A DNA stretch of 64,000 bases, from assembly GCF_014041915.1 (NCBI RefSeq), contig NZ_CP059472.1, positions 1,798,001-1,862,000 on the forward strand, read 5' to 3'. The DNA is from Marnyiella aurantia (GTDB lineage: Bacteria; Bacteroidota; Bacteroidia; Flavobacteriales; Weeksellaceae). The notes under the pieces were generated by a model. It had not been told where the DNA came from. It saw only the letters and a list, made by a program, of their open reading frames with translations, and made no database searches. Both the position numbers and the translations under genes were made by a program. Position 1 is the first letter of the stretch, and every line of letters starts with the position of its first letter. Below, piece by piece: positions 2,469 through 7,770 of the stretch.

Positions 2469-3182
2469 TTATTTAAAATACCTTTCGGCTAATGCAATAG
2501 CCTCAGGTTTTCCTACATCAACCAAATGTGCCGAATGCTCAAAGCCGAAGATCTGCCCGATAGACATTAAGTCCAGATATTCTTCCATGATGGAGAACTT
2601 ACCCGTGCGGCTCATCTTATTGAAAACACCTCTGTTTACGCAGTGAATCCCACTGAAGGCTAGTGGTTTAAAACCGGTGTCTGGCTCTGCCAGCCGCTCT
2701 TCACCAGTGTCAAGATTTGTCCATCCGCGCAATTGTTGTTCCTTGTTGAAAAGAAGTTTTCTGGAACTATTCCTGTCAGATACTGCCAGGGTCACAAAAT
2801 TCCTTTTACTCTGATGATATTTTACCAGATCCGTAATATTCAGGTCTGTTAAAATGTCGGCATTCAAAATCAGAAAATCTTCCTCAGATTCAAGGAAATG
2901 TTTGGCAAACAGCAAACCTCCGCCGGTTTCCAACAGCTCGGCACGCTCATCCGAGATTTCAATCTTCGCGCCAAAATTGTCCTTCTCCTTCAGAAACTGA
3001 ATAATCTGTTCGCCGAAATGGTGAATGTTGATGACAAATTCATTGATGCCATACGACTGTAGGTATTTTATATTTCTTTCCAGTAAAGGCACACCGTTCA
3101 CCGGCGCCAGTGCTTTTGGATGATGGTCTGTAAAGGGTTTCAGGCGGGTGCCCTTACCTGCAGCGAAAATCAGTGCTTTCAT
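2469..3182 (-). CDS. murU: MurU-like sugar-1-phosphate nucleotidyltransferase
   Basis: A 237-residue nucleotidyltransferase with the N-terminal signature FAAGKGTRLKPF and PKAL lysine (residues 6-24), the NTP- and metal-binding motif of this superfamily; NADIL near residue 110 supplies the metal-binding Asp. The length and the AmgK-like kinase in the same operon point to N-acetylmuramate 1-phosphate uridylyltransferase (MurU). Together they would turn recycled MurNAc into UDP-MurNAc, bypassing de novo synthesis. The substrate is inferred from neighbours; a mannose-1-phosphate or glucose-1-phosphate transferase cannot be excluded. It is preceded by the RapZ-domain gene (8 bp gap) and followed by the LOG gene (8 bp gap), so the three are almost certainly co-transcribed. 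Confidence 0.75.
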   Translation of the reverse strand: MKALIFAAGKGTRLKPFTDHHPKALAPVNGVPLLERNIKYLQSYGINEFVINIHHFGEQIIQFLKEKDNFGAKIEISDERAELLETGGGLLFAKHFLESEEDFLILNADILTDLNITDLVKYHQSKRNFVTLAVSDRNSSRKLLFNKEQQLRGWTNLDTGEERLAEPDTGFKPLAFSGIHCVNRGVFNKMSRTGKFSIMEEYLDLMSIGQIFGFEHSAHLVDVGKPEAIALAERYFK

Positions 3183-3190
3183 GCCCTTAC

Positions 3191-3610
3191 TTAAATTGTA
3201 ACTTCTGCATTAAGTTGCGGTTGTTCATCATGATGGATCACTACGTTTGCCTCTGGATAATTTTCGCGGATAAAGTGCGCAGTCTTTTCAGCACAGTATA
3301 CGGAGCGGTGTTGGCCGCCGGTGCAGCCGAAATTGATCTGAAGATGTTCAAACCCTCTTTCCAGGTAATTCTCGATGCTGATGGAAACCATATTATGTAC
3401 AAGCTGAAGAAATCTTGGCATTTCTGTTTTGGCCTCCAGATATTCCTGTACTGAAATATCACGCCCTGTTTGCGCTTTATACTCCTCTATCCGCCCCGGA
3501 TTCAGGATACCGCGGCAGTCGAAGGCAAAGCCGCCGCCGTTGCCGGTAGTATCTTTGGGAATTCCCCCTTTTTTATAGGAAAAGCTGTGTATATCTATTG
3601 TTAAACTCAT
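3191..3610 (-). CDS. Stand-alone RapZ C-terminal domain protein
   Basis: This 139-residue protein matches only the C-terminal domain of RapZ. It has FAFDCRGILNPGR (residues 28-40) and the hallmark GCTGGQHRSVYCAE (95-108), with C96, H101 and R102 in the ligand-binding loop. In E. coli RapZ this domain binds glucosamine 6-phosphate and adapts small RNAs to RNase E. The N-terminal P-loop kinase-like domain of full-length RapZ is missing altogether. The gene sits between the AmgK-like kinase (3 bp gap) and the MurU-like transferase (8 bp gap). A role as an amino-sugar phosphate sensor or as an activity modulator of its two neighbours is inferred. No RNA target is visible here. Confidence 0.85.
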   Translation of the reverse strand: MSLTIDIHSFSYKKGGIPKDTTGNGGGFAFDCRGILNPGRIEEYKAQTGRDISVQEYLEAKTEMPRFLQLVHNMVSISIENYLERGFEHLQINFGCTGGQHRSVYCAEKTAHFIRENYPEANVVIHHDEQPQLNAEVTI

Positions 3611-3613
3611 TTA

Positions 3614-4624
3614 TTATAATAGTGATTGTTTGATTTTTTTATTCGTTTCGCCGGACTTCAGACAGGTTATGAGCTTTTTAAGTTCGGGGTATAAGTGCAT
3701 GTCTTTCCATTTCTCGCTTAATGAGTATAAATTATCGGTTCCTGCACTGAGACTTGATATGAAATGAGCCTTTTTCTGGATGAGTCCCCGGAAACCATAC
3801 GCACCCAAAACCTGCATAAAACGGACAAGTTGCAGCGGTCCGAGTGAACTCTGTAGTTGTTCGCGAACCGTGGGGTCATCATGCATATCAAAGTAATAGT
3901 TTAACATCTCAGCACGAAAGTTAATCGAAAAGTTAGCTTTGGCCTGGAACAGAAAAGAAATTACGTCATACATGGCCGGTCCTTCCATTGCGGACTGGTA
4001 ATCTATGAAGTAAACCTCATCTTCATCATTTACCATAATATTCCGTGCCTGAAAATCACGCAGCATCACAGAGCGTGGTCCCAGATCGGTAAGTTTCTCC
4101 GTAAGCTCGCGGAATTCCCGCAGCAGGCTGGATTTATGGTAAGGAAGCTCCAGTACATCTGCAATGAAGCTTTTAAAATAAAAGAGATCGTTCTGTATCG
4201 GCAGTTCGTCATACACTTCATATTCAAATGCGTTGCTGAAATCAACCTTATTTACTGATTTTTGCTGAAGGACAAACAGGCTGTTGAGGCTCTTACGAAC
4301 AAGAATTTTGACCCTTTCACTTTCACCTTCCTGGCTGATTATTTCTGAAAGTGTACGTTTACCCAAATACTCCTGCACATACAGGGTTCGGTCTTCGGAA
4401 ATACTGAAAATTTTTGGAGTGTTGAGCTGCAGTTGCTGAAAAACGTCTGTCAGATAATAAAACGATTCATTTTCCCTGAGATTGCTGTTGCTGGTCACGA
4501 TGAAATTCCGGCCACCTGAGGTAGCGAAATAGTTGCGTCGGGATGATCCGCTTTCGGCGAGTGCATAAAAAACCGAACATGTACTTCCGGTATAATTTTC
4601 AAGAAACTGTTGAGCTTTTTCCAA
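3614..4624 (-). CDS. amgK: AmgK-like aminoglycoside phosphotransferase-fold sugar kinase
   Basis: A 336-residue APH/choline-kinase-fold protein. AmgK phosphorylates the anomeric hydroxyl of MurNAc/GlcNAc for peptidoglycan recycling. The catalytic loop is at residues 187-197 (MLRDFQARNIM, D190 and N195), and the metal-binding Asp is D208 in FIDYQSA. The usual His of the HxD motif is Leu188. The neighbouring MurU-like gene makes AmgK the best call over a generic APH enzyme, and no resistance-gene context is seen. It is the first gene of the operon, with a -7 box on the minus strand at 4642-4649 that leaves a leader of only about 10-15 bases. Function is inferred from fold plus operon. Confidence 0.75.
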   Translation of the reverse strand: MEKAQQFLENYTGSTCSVFYALAESGSSRRNYFATSGGRNFIVTSNSNLRENESFYYLTDVFQQLQLNTPKIFSISEDRTLYVQEYLGKRTLSEIISQEGESERVKILVRKSLNSLFVLQQKSVNKVDFSNAFEYEVYDELPIQNDLFYFKSFIADVLELPYHKSSLLREFRELTEKLTDLGPRSVMLRDFQARNIMVNDEDEVYFIDYQSAMEGPAMYDVISFLFQAKANFSINFRAEMLNYYFDMHDDPTVREQLQSSLGPLQLVRFMQVLGAYGFRGLIQKKAHFISSLSAGTDNLYSLSEKWKDMHLYPELKKLITCLKSGETNKKIKQSLL

Positions 4625-5504: not shown

Positions 5505-5512
5505 TATTTTCG
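5505..5512 (+). promoter_or_regulatory. Probable -7 box for the TPP riboswitch transcript
   Basis: TATTTTCG differs from the TAnnTTTG consensus at one position and lies 9-16 bases before the first conserved riboswitch bases, so the transcript would begin directly at the aptamer. Confidence 0.5.
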
Positions 5513-5520
5513 CGCCATTA

Positions 5521-5593
5521 AGTTTAAGGGGTGCTGTAAAAAGCTGAGATTATACCCAATGAACCTGGAACAGGTAATGCTGTTTAGGGAGTG
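5521..5593 (+). ncRNA. TPP (thiamine pyrophosphate) riboswitch, THI box
   Basis: All signature blocks of the TPP aptamer occur in order: GGGGTGC (5528-5534), GCTGAGA (5543-5549), TACCC (5553-5557), GAACCTGG (5561-5568), AGGTAATGC (5572-5580) and AGGGA (5586-5590). It lies in the 168-base leader of the TonB-dependent receptor gene. Immediately downstream, GATC-TTCG-GATC (5593-5604) followed by a T-rich stretch could be a small expression-platform hairpin. TPP binding would be expected to lower expression of the receptor. Confidence 0.95.
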
Positions 5594-5661
5594 ATCTTCG
5601 GATCTTTTATTGTATAATTTTTTACGTCCCCTTTTATTCAATTAATCTAAAAATTAAAAGA

Positions 5662-7770
5662 ATGAAAGGATTTGTTATTTTAGGACTTTGTGCAGGTCCT
5701 CTCTATTTTGCGCAATCTATGCCGAAAGACACGGCAAAAATTCAGGAAATTCAAAGTGTAACTTTCACAAAACGTCTGCCTGTAGCACGTGAAATTGTAA
5801 ACGTGGCGAAGGACCTGGACCACAAAAACCTCGGTCAGGACCTTCCGGTTCTCCTCAAAAATCAAACTTCCGTGGTGGCAACCTCCGACGCAGGTAATGG
5901 CATAGGCTATACCGGATTCCGGATTCGTGGCGTGGGCGGAAGCGGCATCAATGTAATGATGAACGGCGTGCCGTATAACGATTCGGAATCGCAGGGGACC
6001 TTTTTTGTCAATGTGCCCGACCTTACCAGTTCGGCCTCTCAAATCATTATTCAGCGCGGAGTGGGAACCTCATCGAACGGTGTCTCGGCATTTGGAGCCA
6101 CGGTGAACGTAATTTCAAAAGATCCCGCGGAGGAGTTTTATGTCCGTTCAGATAATTCCTACGGTTCCTTCAATACCTATAAATATTCAGCTGAGGTGGG
6201 CTCGGGGAAATTCTGGAACAACCGCCTGAGTTTGATGGGTAGGTATACAGGCATACATTCGGACGGTTATATAGACAGAGCTTCAGCTGACCTTCAGTCT
6301 TATAATCTGAGTGCACTTTTTGAGGAGGGAAATACCTCTGTGAGATTCCTCGCATTTGGCGGCAGGGAAAAAACCTATCAGGCGTGGAACGGCATTGACC
6401 GCGAAACCTGGCTGACGGCGCCCCGTTCAAACTTCTCAGGAGCTATTTATGATTCTGATTGGGAAAACATAATAGGTTTTTATGATAATGAAACCGATAA
6501 TTACCGCCAAAACCATTATCAGCTGTTGTGGAATCAGCGTATCAGTCCTCAGTGGAAGCTGGAAACCACACTGCACTATACCAAGGGTAAAGGCTTCTAT
6601 GAAAACTATAAACAGGGCGCGGCTTATTCAAAATATAACCTGTCTGACCAAGTTGCTGGCGCGTATTCGGATTTTATACGAAAAAAGTGGCTGGACAATG
6701 ATTTCTATGGTGGGGTAAGTACGCTTTACGGTAAGTTTGACAATCTGGATCTGAACTTTGGCCTTGTTGCAAACCACTATTTTGGTAAACATTTCGGTCA
6801 GGTGTCTGATGTGTATGTTCCAGCTATTTCCTCACACGAATATTACCGCAATAATGGGGTTAAGGATGAACTTGCAGGTTTTGCAAAAGCCATCTACCGA
6901 CTTAATAAGTTTGAAATTTTTGGCGATTTGCAGCTCAGGAACATTTCCTACAATACGTCAGTAATCATGGAGGGCGATGATGAAGGCATGAACCTGAGTA
7001 AGGAGTGGCTATTCTTCAATCCTAAATTCGGTTTGAATTACCTCATTGATTCGGGAAAAATCTTCTTATCCTACGCTCATGCACAACGCGAGCCCAACCG
7101 CGATGACCTTTTTGCCAATACTGAAACCCAGCCGGAAAAACTTCATGATTTTGAGGCAGGAATGGAAAAAACCCTGGGTAATGTTATGCTTACTGCCAAT
7201 CTGTATTTTATGAACTACCGCAATCAGCTGGTACTGAACGGTAAAATTAATGATATTGGTGAGTTTATCCGCGAAAACAGCGGAGAGAGTTACAGAACCG
7301 GGATTGAACTGGGAGCCGCGGCAAAACTCTCCGAAAACTGGAACGTATCCGGTAATCTGAATATAAGCCGAAACCGCAACCGCAACTTTATTATTGAAGA
7401 TGCCAGCGGAATACAGGACCTGGGGGATACACCTATCTCATTTTCCCCGGGTTTAATTGGTAATCTTATGGTAAATTATACTCCTCTCAAAAACTTCAGT
7501 TTGGGTCTGCAGAACCAGTATGTTGGCCGGCAGTTTCTGGACAATACAAATACTGCGGAGCTGCAGCTGGAAGATTATCTGCTTACCGATTTTAACGCCA
7601 GATATATTCTGAACCTGAAAAAAACCGATCTGGATTTCAAACTTCTTGTAAATAATATTCTGGACCGTAAATATGTGAATAATGGTTATGTTGATGACGC
7701 TTCACCTTATTATTTCTCGCAGGCCGGTATAAATTTCATGTTTGGGATTTCGGTATTATTGAAGAAGTAA
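5662..7770 (+). CDS. TonB-dependent receptor, predicted thiamine transporter
   Basis: A 702-residue outer membrane receptor. It has a signal peptide (residues 1-19, cut after YFAQ), a candidate TonB box near IQSVTFTKRLP (about 30-40), a plug domain (about 50-160, with FRIRGVGGSG and INVMMNGVPYND), and a 22-strand barrel ending ...NFMFGISVLLKK. No N-terminal carboxypeptidase-like domain is present. The TPP riboswitch in its leader is the decisive clue: TPP-regulated TonB receptors of Bacteroidota are outer membrane thiamine transporters. Nothing in the protein alone proves the ligand. No thi biosynthesis or PnuT gene lies beside it, so it appears to be a lone uptake gene. Confidence 0.85.
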   Translation: MKGFVILGLCAGPLYFAQSMPKDTAKIQEIQSVTFTKRLPVAREIVNVAKDLDHKNLGQDLPVLLKNQTSVVATSDAGNGIGYTGFRIRGVGGSGINVMMNGVPYNDSESQGTFFVNVPDLTSSASQIIIQRGVGTSSNGVSAFGATVNVISKDPAEEFYVRSDNSYGSFNTYKYSAEVGSGKFWNNRLSLMGRYTGIHSDGYIDRASADLQSYNLSALFEEGNTSVRFLAFGGREKTYQAWNGIDRETWLTAPRSNFSGAIYDSDWENIIGFYDNETDNYRQNHYQLLWNQRISPQWKLETTLHYTKGKGFYENYKQGAAYSKYNLSDQVAGAYSDFIRKKWLDNDFYGGVSTLYGKFDNLDLNFGLVANHYFGKHFGQVSDVYVPAISSHEYYRNNGVKDELAGFAKAIYRLNKFEIFGDLQLRNISYNTSVIMEGDDEGMNLSKEWLFFNPKFGLNYLIDSGKIFLSYAHAQREPNRDDLFANTETQPEKLHDFEAGMEKTLGNVMLTANLYFMNYRNQLVLNGKINDIGEFIRENSGESYRTGIELGAAAKLSENWNVSGNLNISRNRNRNFIIEDASGIQDLGDTPISFSPGLIGNLMVNYTPLKNFSLGLQNQYVGRQFLDNTNTAELQLEDYLLTDFNARYILNLKKTDLDFKLLVNNILDRKYVNNGYVDDASPYYFSQAGINFMFGISVLLKK

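Follow-up and report, generated by a model that had tools for sequence, protein, structure and literature searches.

Among thiamine pyrophosphate (TPP) riboswitches, thiM of Escherichia coli acts on translation through a sequestor and an anti-sequestor. According to PMC2258182, in riboswitches of this scheme the ligand disrupts the anti-sequestor and a sequestor hairpin blocks initiation, and most riboswitches switch through the P1 helix. In Bacteroides thetaiotaomicron, the TonB-dependent receptor OMthi (BT2390) and pnuT are both reported to lie behind TPP riboswitches, and deletion of OMthi or pnuT in a synthesis mutant raised the half-maximal effective concentration (EC50) of thiamine from 2.8 nM to 15.8 or 10.9 nM (PMC5613172). 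The same report found no significant change with thiamine in transcripts of the transport operons (OMthi and pnuT), which would fit translational control, and in 2017 it described TPP riboswitch function in Bacteroidetes as uncertain (PMC5613172). PMC7366714 cites a 2019 preprint whose subject is the control of transcription or translation by TPP riboswitches in Bacteroides. Here, we analyzed a stretch of 64,000 nucleotides of Marnyiella aurantia (contig NZ_CP059472.1, positions 1,798,001 to 1,862,000; hereafter, the window), in which a TPP aptamer precedes the gene of a TonB-dependent receptor. We consider it likely that a translational OFF TPP riboswitch controls here a stand-alone TonB-dependent thiamine importer in a bacterium unable to make thiamine.

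Computational analysis of this locus and its relatives identified the aptamer, its linkage to the receptor gene, the lack of ThiC and ThiE matches in the genome, and two mutually exclusive helices backed by conservation and modelled energies. The element has the same conserved core as the THI element of Rfam (RF00059) and, like it, accompanies a thiamine-related gene; it differs in lacking P3a and a supported P1, and in scoring under the curated cut-off. As described for OMthi (PMC5613172, PMC7366714), the receptor stands directly behind the riboswitch, a likeness of gene arrangement; unlike that case, the genome of the window has no ThiC or ThiE matches and the start-codon platform found in the order is rare in the class sample. 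The proposed switch would follow the sequestor/anti-sequestor scheme outlined in PMC2258182. In contrast to the thiM type, however, the start codon itself would be hidden, no Shine-Dalgarno site would be involved, and the alternative partner would be the P2 5′ strand and not P1 or the 3′ side.

The aptamer and its linkage to a receptor gene

A first-pass annotation of this DNA had named a covariance search as its check. When run permissively, that search matched RF00059 on the forward strand with an E-value of 1.1e-8 over 105 of the 105 model positions. The score of 48.8 bits lies below the Rfam gathering score (54.3 bits), at which cmscan reported zero matches in the window, so that the refutation test of that annotation, taken naively at the gathering score, would fail the aptamer; the cut-off is, however, an annotation threshold and not a biological property. 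In the whole genome (one contig of 2,613,493 bases, completeness 99.75), this is the sole RF00059 match at E ≤ 1. The core helices P2, P3, P4 and P5 are all present together with the GCUGAGA, ACCC, GAACCUG and GGUAAUG motifs, and to that extent the earlier description of the aptamer as complete is upheld. It does not extend to P3a, which is absent, nor to P1, whose flanks pair at −0.7 kcal/mol in the window and form no convincing helix.

A promoter-like −7 box with the consensus TAnnTTTG, as quoted in PMC9723704, precedes the aptamer. In perfect form it occurs in 31 of 45 leaders of the same family and in 21 of 24 other leaders of the order, usually 12–15 nt before GGGG. Since this box lies directly upstream of the aptamer, the mRNA probably begins at about 5517–5520, at the 5′ edge of the aptamer, which would leave scant room for P1.

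The association was then followed in 79 genomes of the order (that of the window and its relatives), where 90 of 92 TPP matches were examined (G047:C2 and G031:C13 were left out). A TPP match at E ≤ 0.01 was present in 74 of the 79 genomes, with only 21 of the 79 above the Rfam cut-off. A receptor homologue was found downstream of 70 of the 90 aptamers, in 70 different genomes, which marks the pairing of aptamer and receptor as an old one. Of these receptor-linked aptamers, 66 fell below the Rfam cut-off, L018, L019, L020 and L022 alone reaching it; among the 20 aptamers without a receptor in the DNA examined, 17 reached it. In an even draw of the class Bacteroidia, 99 of 109 genomes carried a TPP match at E ≤ 1e-4, and 54 of the 87 aptamers examined from this draw preceded a receptor. 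Conservation of the pair across the order supports both the direct control of the receptor by the riboswitch, as the first-pass annotation had proposed, and thiamine as its cargo.

A proposed switching arm for the aptamer and the start codon

Side-by-side reading of the leaders revealed an arm (CCCCTTTTATTC in the window) complementary both to AAGGGG of the aptamer and to the region GAATGAAAGG at 5660–5669, which spans the start codon and the bases on either side of it; part of the arm is common to both helices. In the proposed mechanism, the aptamer would be loose without TPP and its P2 5′ strand AAGGGG would lie on the arm CCCCUUUUAUUC, with the result that the start-codon hairpin would be weakened and ribosomes would load. 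Upon TPP binding, P2 would close and the released arm would pair with GAAUGAAAGG, burying the AUG in a 10-bp helix, and less receptor would be made; neither a Shine-Dalgarno site nor P1 would be needed. We infer that TPP drives this change in the cell and that control is exerted at the level of translation. By computation, the leader contains the two elements of a translational OFF switch, namely a hairpin that can sequester the initiation region and an anti-sequestor helix incompatible with it, and the remark in the first-pass annotation that the expression platform was not obvious is hence superseded. There is a likeness between the start region of the gene itself (GAAUGAAAGG) and the P2 5′ strand with its flank, which reads GAAAUAAAGGGG in Chryseobacterium and GAAUAAAGGGG in L051.

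Table 1. Features of the riboswitch-receptor locus, in window coordinates.
Feature	Position	Strand	Basis
Promoter-like −7 box TATTTTCG, five of the six fixed bases of TAnnTTTG	5505–5512	+	Box search
TPP riboswitch aptamer (THI element); P3a absent, P1 not convincing	5517–5608	+	RF00059, 48.8 bits
AAGGGG, flank and P2 5′ strand; pairs with 5628–5633 in the proposed TPP-free state	5526–5531	+	Shuffle test of P2 against leader
P2 (5529–5532 with 5554–5557), enclosing P3 (5533–5535 with 5542–5544)	5529–5557	+	Rfam alignment and listed pairs
P4 (5564–5566 with 5586–5588), enclosing P5 (5569–5573 with 5580–5584)	5564–5588	+	Rfam alignment and listed pairs
GATC-TTCG-GATC hairpin, probably a spacer	5593–5604	+	Sequence; region differs between genera
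Switching arm CCCCUUUUAUUC, partner of 5526–5531 or of 5660–5669	5628–5639	+	Partner overlap in order leaders
Start-codon hairpin: 5630–5639 with 5660–5669 (10 bp, one G-U) and inner helix 5642–5646 with 5653–5657	5630–5669	+	Folds, shuffles
TonB-dependent receptor, 702 amino acids, probable thiamine receptor (OMthi-like)	5662–7770	+	Plug and OMP_b-brl_3 above cut-off

Both pairings were scored in 69 leaders of the order against 200 dinucleotide shuffles each, a leader passing when it ranked at or below 5% of its shuffles (from the order and class leaders together, L213, L224 and L206, in which no start was placed, and L048, L220 and L241, with the start more than 200 nt away, were left out of the tests). 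The start region passed in 50 leaders and the P2 strand in 41, and the two partners overlapped on the arm by at least 5 nt in 57 leaders, compared with 19.7 expected from the shuffles. In the family of the window (45 leaders), the corresponding numbers were 40 for the start, 29 for P2 and 42 for the overlap. Among the 42 non-overlapping open reading frames (ORFs) of at least 200 amino acids in the window, the start region of the receptor paired most strongly with its upstream 66 bases (−12.8 kcal/mol versus a median of −6.05) and was also the costliest to open (12.0 versus a median of 4.7). In one leader, L085 (G006), around 60 extra bases with the inverted repeat TCCCTCTCC...GGAGAGGGA separate the arm from the start codon; even so, pairing between the start region and the arm, which lies at −96 to −83, reaches −13.9 kcal/mol.

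The consequences for the start codon were modelled with two states, in which P2 was enforced as a stand-in for the TPP-bound form or the arm was placed on the aptamer (62 order leaders, 44 of them from the family). In the window, opening the start cost 11.4 kcal/mol with P2 enforced and 3.1 with the arm on the aptamer, and the family means were 10.8 and 4.3, respectively. All 44 family leaders, and 57 of the 62 from the order, had a more open start in the arm state. After shuffling of the leaders, the two states differed in opening cost by 0.47 kcal/mol, compared with 6.49 before, and 36 of 43 leaders exceeded all 12 of their own shuffles. On average, the energies of the two states lay 0.15 kcal/mol apart in the family. 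Folded freely, the entire leader was not unusually stable (z −1.77).

Covariation was assessed by swapping partners: in 118 order and class leaders, the pairing of the P2 flank or of the start with the leader to which it belongs was compared with its pairing with foreign ones. On average, the share of foreign leaders that did better was 0.343 for the P2 flank (p 4.9e-8; 0.391 in the order and 0.396 in the class) and 0.271 for the start region (p 1e-10; 0.398 in the class). In the best duplexes, which were selected for pairing, the pairs at the two positions before GGGG include A-U, C-G, U-A and G-C; examples are the duplexes of TAAACAGGGG and CCCCTGTTTA (L175) and of TTAATACAGGGG and TTCCTGTATTAA (L200). 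With regard to the start, the arm CTCTTTTTATGCAT of L090 tracks the change to a coding start ATGTATAAAAAGA, and Flavobacterium pectinovorum (L158) has ATTTGTAA...TTACAGATG where ATTCGTAA...TTACGNATG is the rule, so that a C-G pair of the start hairpin has become U-A.

A second sample consisted of 80 named contigs, whose lineages are shared with the first sample and which are therefore not independent of it. The aptamer motif was found upstream of the receptor in 74 of them (missing in L124, L132, L140, L161, L162 and L172), and 70 were used, after exclusion of L093, L121 and L122 (the same places as L042, L046 and L050) and of L149 (misplaced start); the starts of L116, L119 and L123 were moved. 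Among the 30 Weeksellaceae, 25 passed the start test and 23 the P2 test; among the 40 others, 14 and 16 did so, respectively. In 34 of the 40 non-Weeksellaceae leaders, mostly from Flavobacterium, another hairpin, ATTCGT...ACGNATG, covers the start, its outer part lying upstream of the region tested. The CCCC of the arm is unused by this Flavobacterium-type start hairpin and yet kept in most of these leaders, which points to the GGGG of the aptamer as its partner. Directly before CCCC, GAATAA or a close form was present in 38 of the 40 (Flavobacterium-type, e.g., L125-L170), a further start-like copy that may hold the arm in the ON state.

Several results weigh against this mechanism or narrow its reach. 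In the window taken alone, the P2-arm pairing ranks at 8.5% of shuffles and the start pairing at 3%, so that the case for the platform rests on the relatives. Outside the order, start pairing was seen in 8 of 49 leaders and the partner overlap was near chance (18 versus 13.3 expected); P2-arm pairing was found in 14 of these 49, and it may be older, dating to the class Bacteroidia, than the start-codon version. Within the order, families f6, f8 and f11 have no start pairing. The reversed-flank control of the swap test was not quite neutral (0.439, p 0.038), which indicates a slight bias, and the swap p-values are too small because the leaders are related. An earlier swap, for which the arm window was fixed by MAFFT, showed no covariation between P2 and the arm (mean rank 0.484); in f8 (L035, L037, L041) this window did not capture the arm correctly, and one or more failed duplexes distorted the means of the test. 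As for the energies, the difference between states (−0.16, standard deviation 2.45) is not far from that of shuffles (−2.01, standard deviation 3.43), and the near-equality of the states is therefore weak evidence by itself. Furthermore, the minimum-energy fold of the window keeps a 7-bp AU-rich part of the start hairpin in the arm state, which suggests an ON state that is relaxed rather than bare.

The three divergent families have features of their own. In f6 (L024, L071, L076), the aptamer core and the start codon are about 20–25 nt apart at most, too close to accommodate an arm, and perhaps the aptamer itself covers the initiation region. In f8 (L035, L037, L041) and f11 (L057, L065), the C-rich partner (ACTCCGTG or ACCCC) seems to occupy a local hairpin loop, without start-codon pairing; in f8, the flank ACGGGG and its partner CUCCGU change together.

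Cargo, genomic context and alternative explanations

The receptor matches PF07715 (Plug) and PF14905 (outer membrane beta-barrel) above the Pfam cut-off. Its upstream neighbour encodes a WG-repeat protein and its downstream neighbours an HU/CCDC81-like protein (below the Pfam cut-off), a thioesterase and a 2-hydroxyacid dehydrogenase; none of the adjacent genes tested was thus a thiamine gene, in agreement with the earlier statement that no thiamine synthesis or inner membrane transporter gene adjoins the receptor. No match to the ThiC or ThiE families was found in the genome by searches that were positive in 13 of 14 and 11 of 14 control genomes, respectively. Thiamine diphosphokinase, on the other hand, is present (PF04263 and TIGR01378, above cut-off). 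Since a genome without ThiC and ThiE cannot join the precursors but can phosphorylate thiamine, the cargo should be thiamine or its phosphates, and is likely to be thiamine itself. The previous assignment of thiamine or a precursor as ligand is thereby both supported and narrowed.

Weak matches to ThiD and ThiG models were rejected, since they fell in ORFs whose appearance, judged by eye, is that of other enzymes, namely a PfkB-type sugar kinase and a nitronate-monooxygenase/FabK-like enzyme. The one PnuC-family protein of the genome (L032), named PnuC by NCBIfam and 28% identical to the two TPP-linked PnuC-like proteins L023 and L092, is at most a candidate for the inner membrane thiamine transporter. 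The thiamine diphosphokinase gene (L031, 2,484,269–2,487,574 of the same genome) lies, by eye, directly after a cobalamin adenosyltransferase-like ORF, with no TPP match nearby. The first codons of the receptor (5662–5673 in the window) are unusually uniform for a signal peptide in the family, with AAA as codon 2 in 42 of 45 and GGA as codon 3 in 32 of 45, as expected if RNA pairing constrains them.

Alternative mechanisms were weighed against the start-codon switch. Transcription attenuation, in which TPP binding would promote an intrinsic terminator in the leader, could draw on the 4-bp GATC-TTCG-GATC hairpin followed by the T-rich stretch TTTTATTG, and TPP riboswitches can act on transcription, as noted in PMC2258182. 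A terminator scan, however, gave two forward-strand hits, one inside the aptamer and one inside the coding region, and nothing resembling an intrinsic terminator in the stretch from aptamer to start codon. Between genera, the region of the GATC hairpin varies, with small hairpins of different sequence seen by eye in L055, L042 and L075, whereas the start hairpin is conserved. The hairpin that the first-pass annotation had pointed out is present but probably serves as a spacer and not as the platform, and we regard attenuation as quite improbable. Slightly less so, though still unlikely, is a translational switch in which another aptamer strand, P1 or the P4 3′ strand, frees or traps the arm. 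The AGGG of P4 is complementary to CCCU in the arm, switching usually runs through P1 (PMC2258182), and a slight preference of the P1 flanks for their own partners is seen over all 118 leaders (mean rank 0.433, p 0.011), with a weak one in the class (−3.61 versus −3.04 kcal/mol, mean rank 0.425, p 0.083). Nevertheless, the P4 strand passed the shuffle test in only 2 of the 69 leaders from the order and 3 of the 49 from the class, and in the order the P1 flanks did not prefer their own partners (−1.45 versus −1.33 kcal/mol for foreign ones, p 0.57), so that P1 is not supported as a switching helix in order leaders. The scan, shuffle and swap tests together thus support neither a terminator platform nor P4 or P1 as the switching strand of the order.

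Two further explanations concern function and not the switching strand. The receptor might carry a thiamine precursor or an unrelated ligand, the riboswitch merely reporting thiamine status; family models naming siderophore receptors match it, below cut-off, and the closest solved structures found with its profile are siderophore and pyrroloquinoline quinone (PQQ)-type receptors (best E 4.9e-18). Its linkage to TPP aptamers in 70 of 79 genomes speaks against this, as does the lack of a ThiE match, which would make precursors unusable, and we give this explanation little weight. Least credible is a decayed aptamer devoid of regulatory function: although the score under the Rfam cut-off and the missing P1 and P3a could be read in this way, the core, the gene linkage and the arm are kept across families of the order.

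Elsewhere in the window, three adjoining ORFs on the reverse strand (2469–4624) resemble an AmgK-type sugar kinase, a lone RapZ C-terminal domain and MurU (below NCBIfam cut-offs), which suggests a cell-wall recycling cluster with a lone RapZ domain.

A proposed TPP switch for initiation without Shine-Dalgarno sites

In Flavobacterium johnsoniae, PMC6847099 reports no Shine-Dalgarno sites and describes structure near the start codon as tuning or lowering initiation; in F. psychrophilum, expressed cobalamin and thiamine leader RNAs were found with Rfam (PMC9723704). On balance, and with somewhat less assurance than for the locus itself, we favor the view that the Flavobacteriales have a TPP-switch architecture of their own, adapted to translation that uses no Shine-Dalgarno sites, in which the aptamer is P1-less and lies at the very 5′ end of the mRNA, and one arm chooses between aptamer and start codon. 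A literature search, with most subscription papers and bioRxiv outside its coverage, returned no title or abstract opening naming this platform; the P1-less start-masking architecture, its spread in the order and the number of its aptamers under the Rfam cut-off are apparently new, and part of the proposed platform may already be described in the 2019 preprint.

The analysis provides a nucleotide-level, testable model of TPP switching for another large order, and suggests a route by which riboswitches could control initiation where, as in this phylum, Shine-Dalgarno sites are not relied upon. Given that 66 of the 70 receptor-linked aptamers of the order score under the Rfam cut-off, surveys of thiamine dependence that use this cut-off would miss most of these uptake genes.

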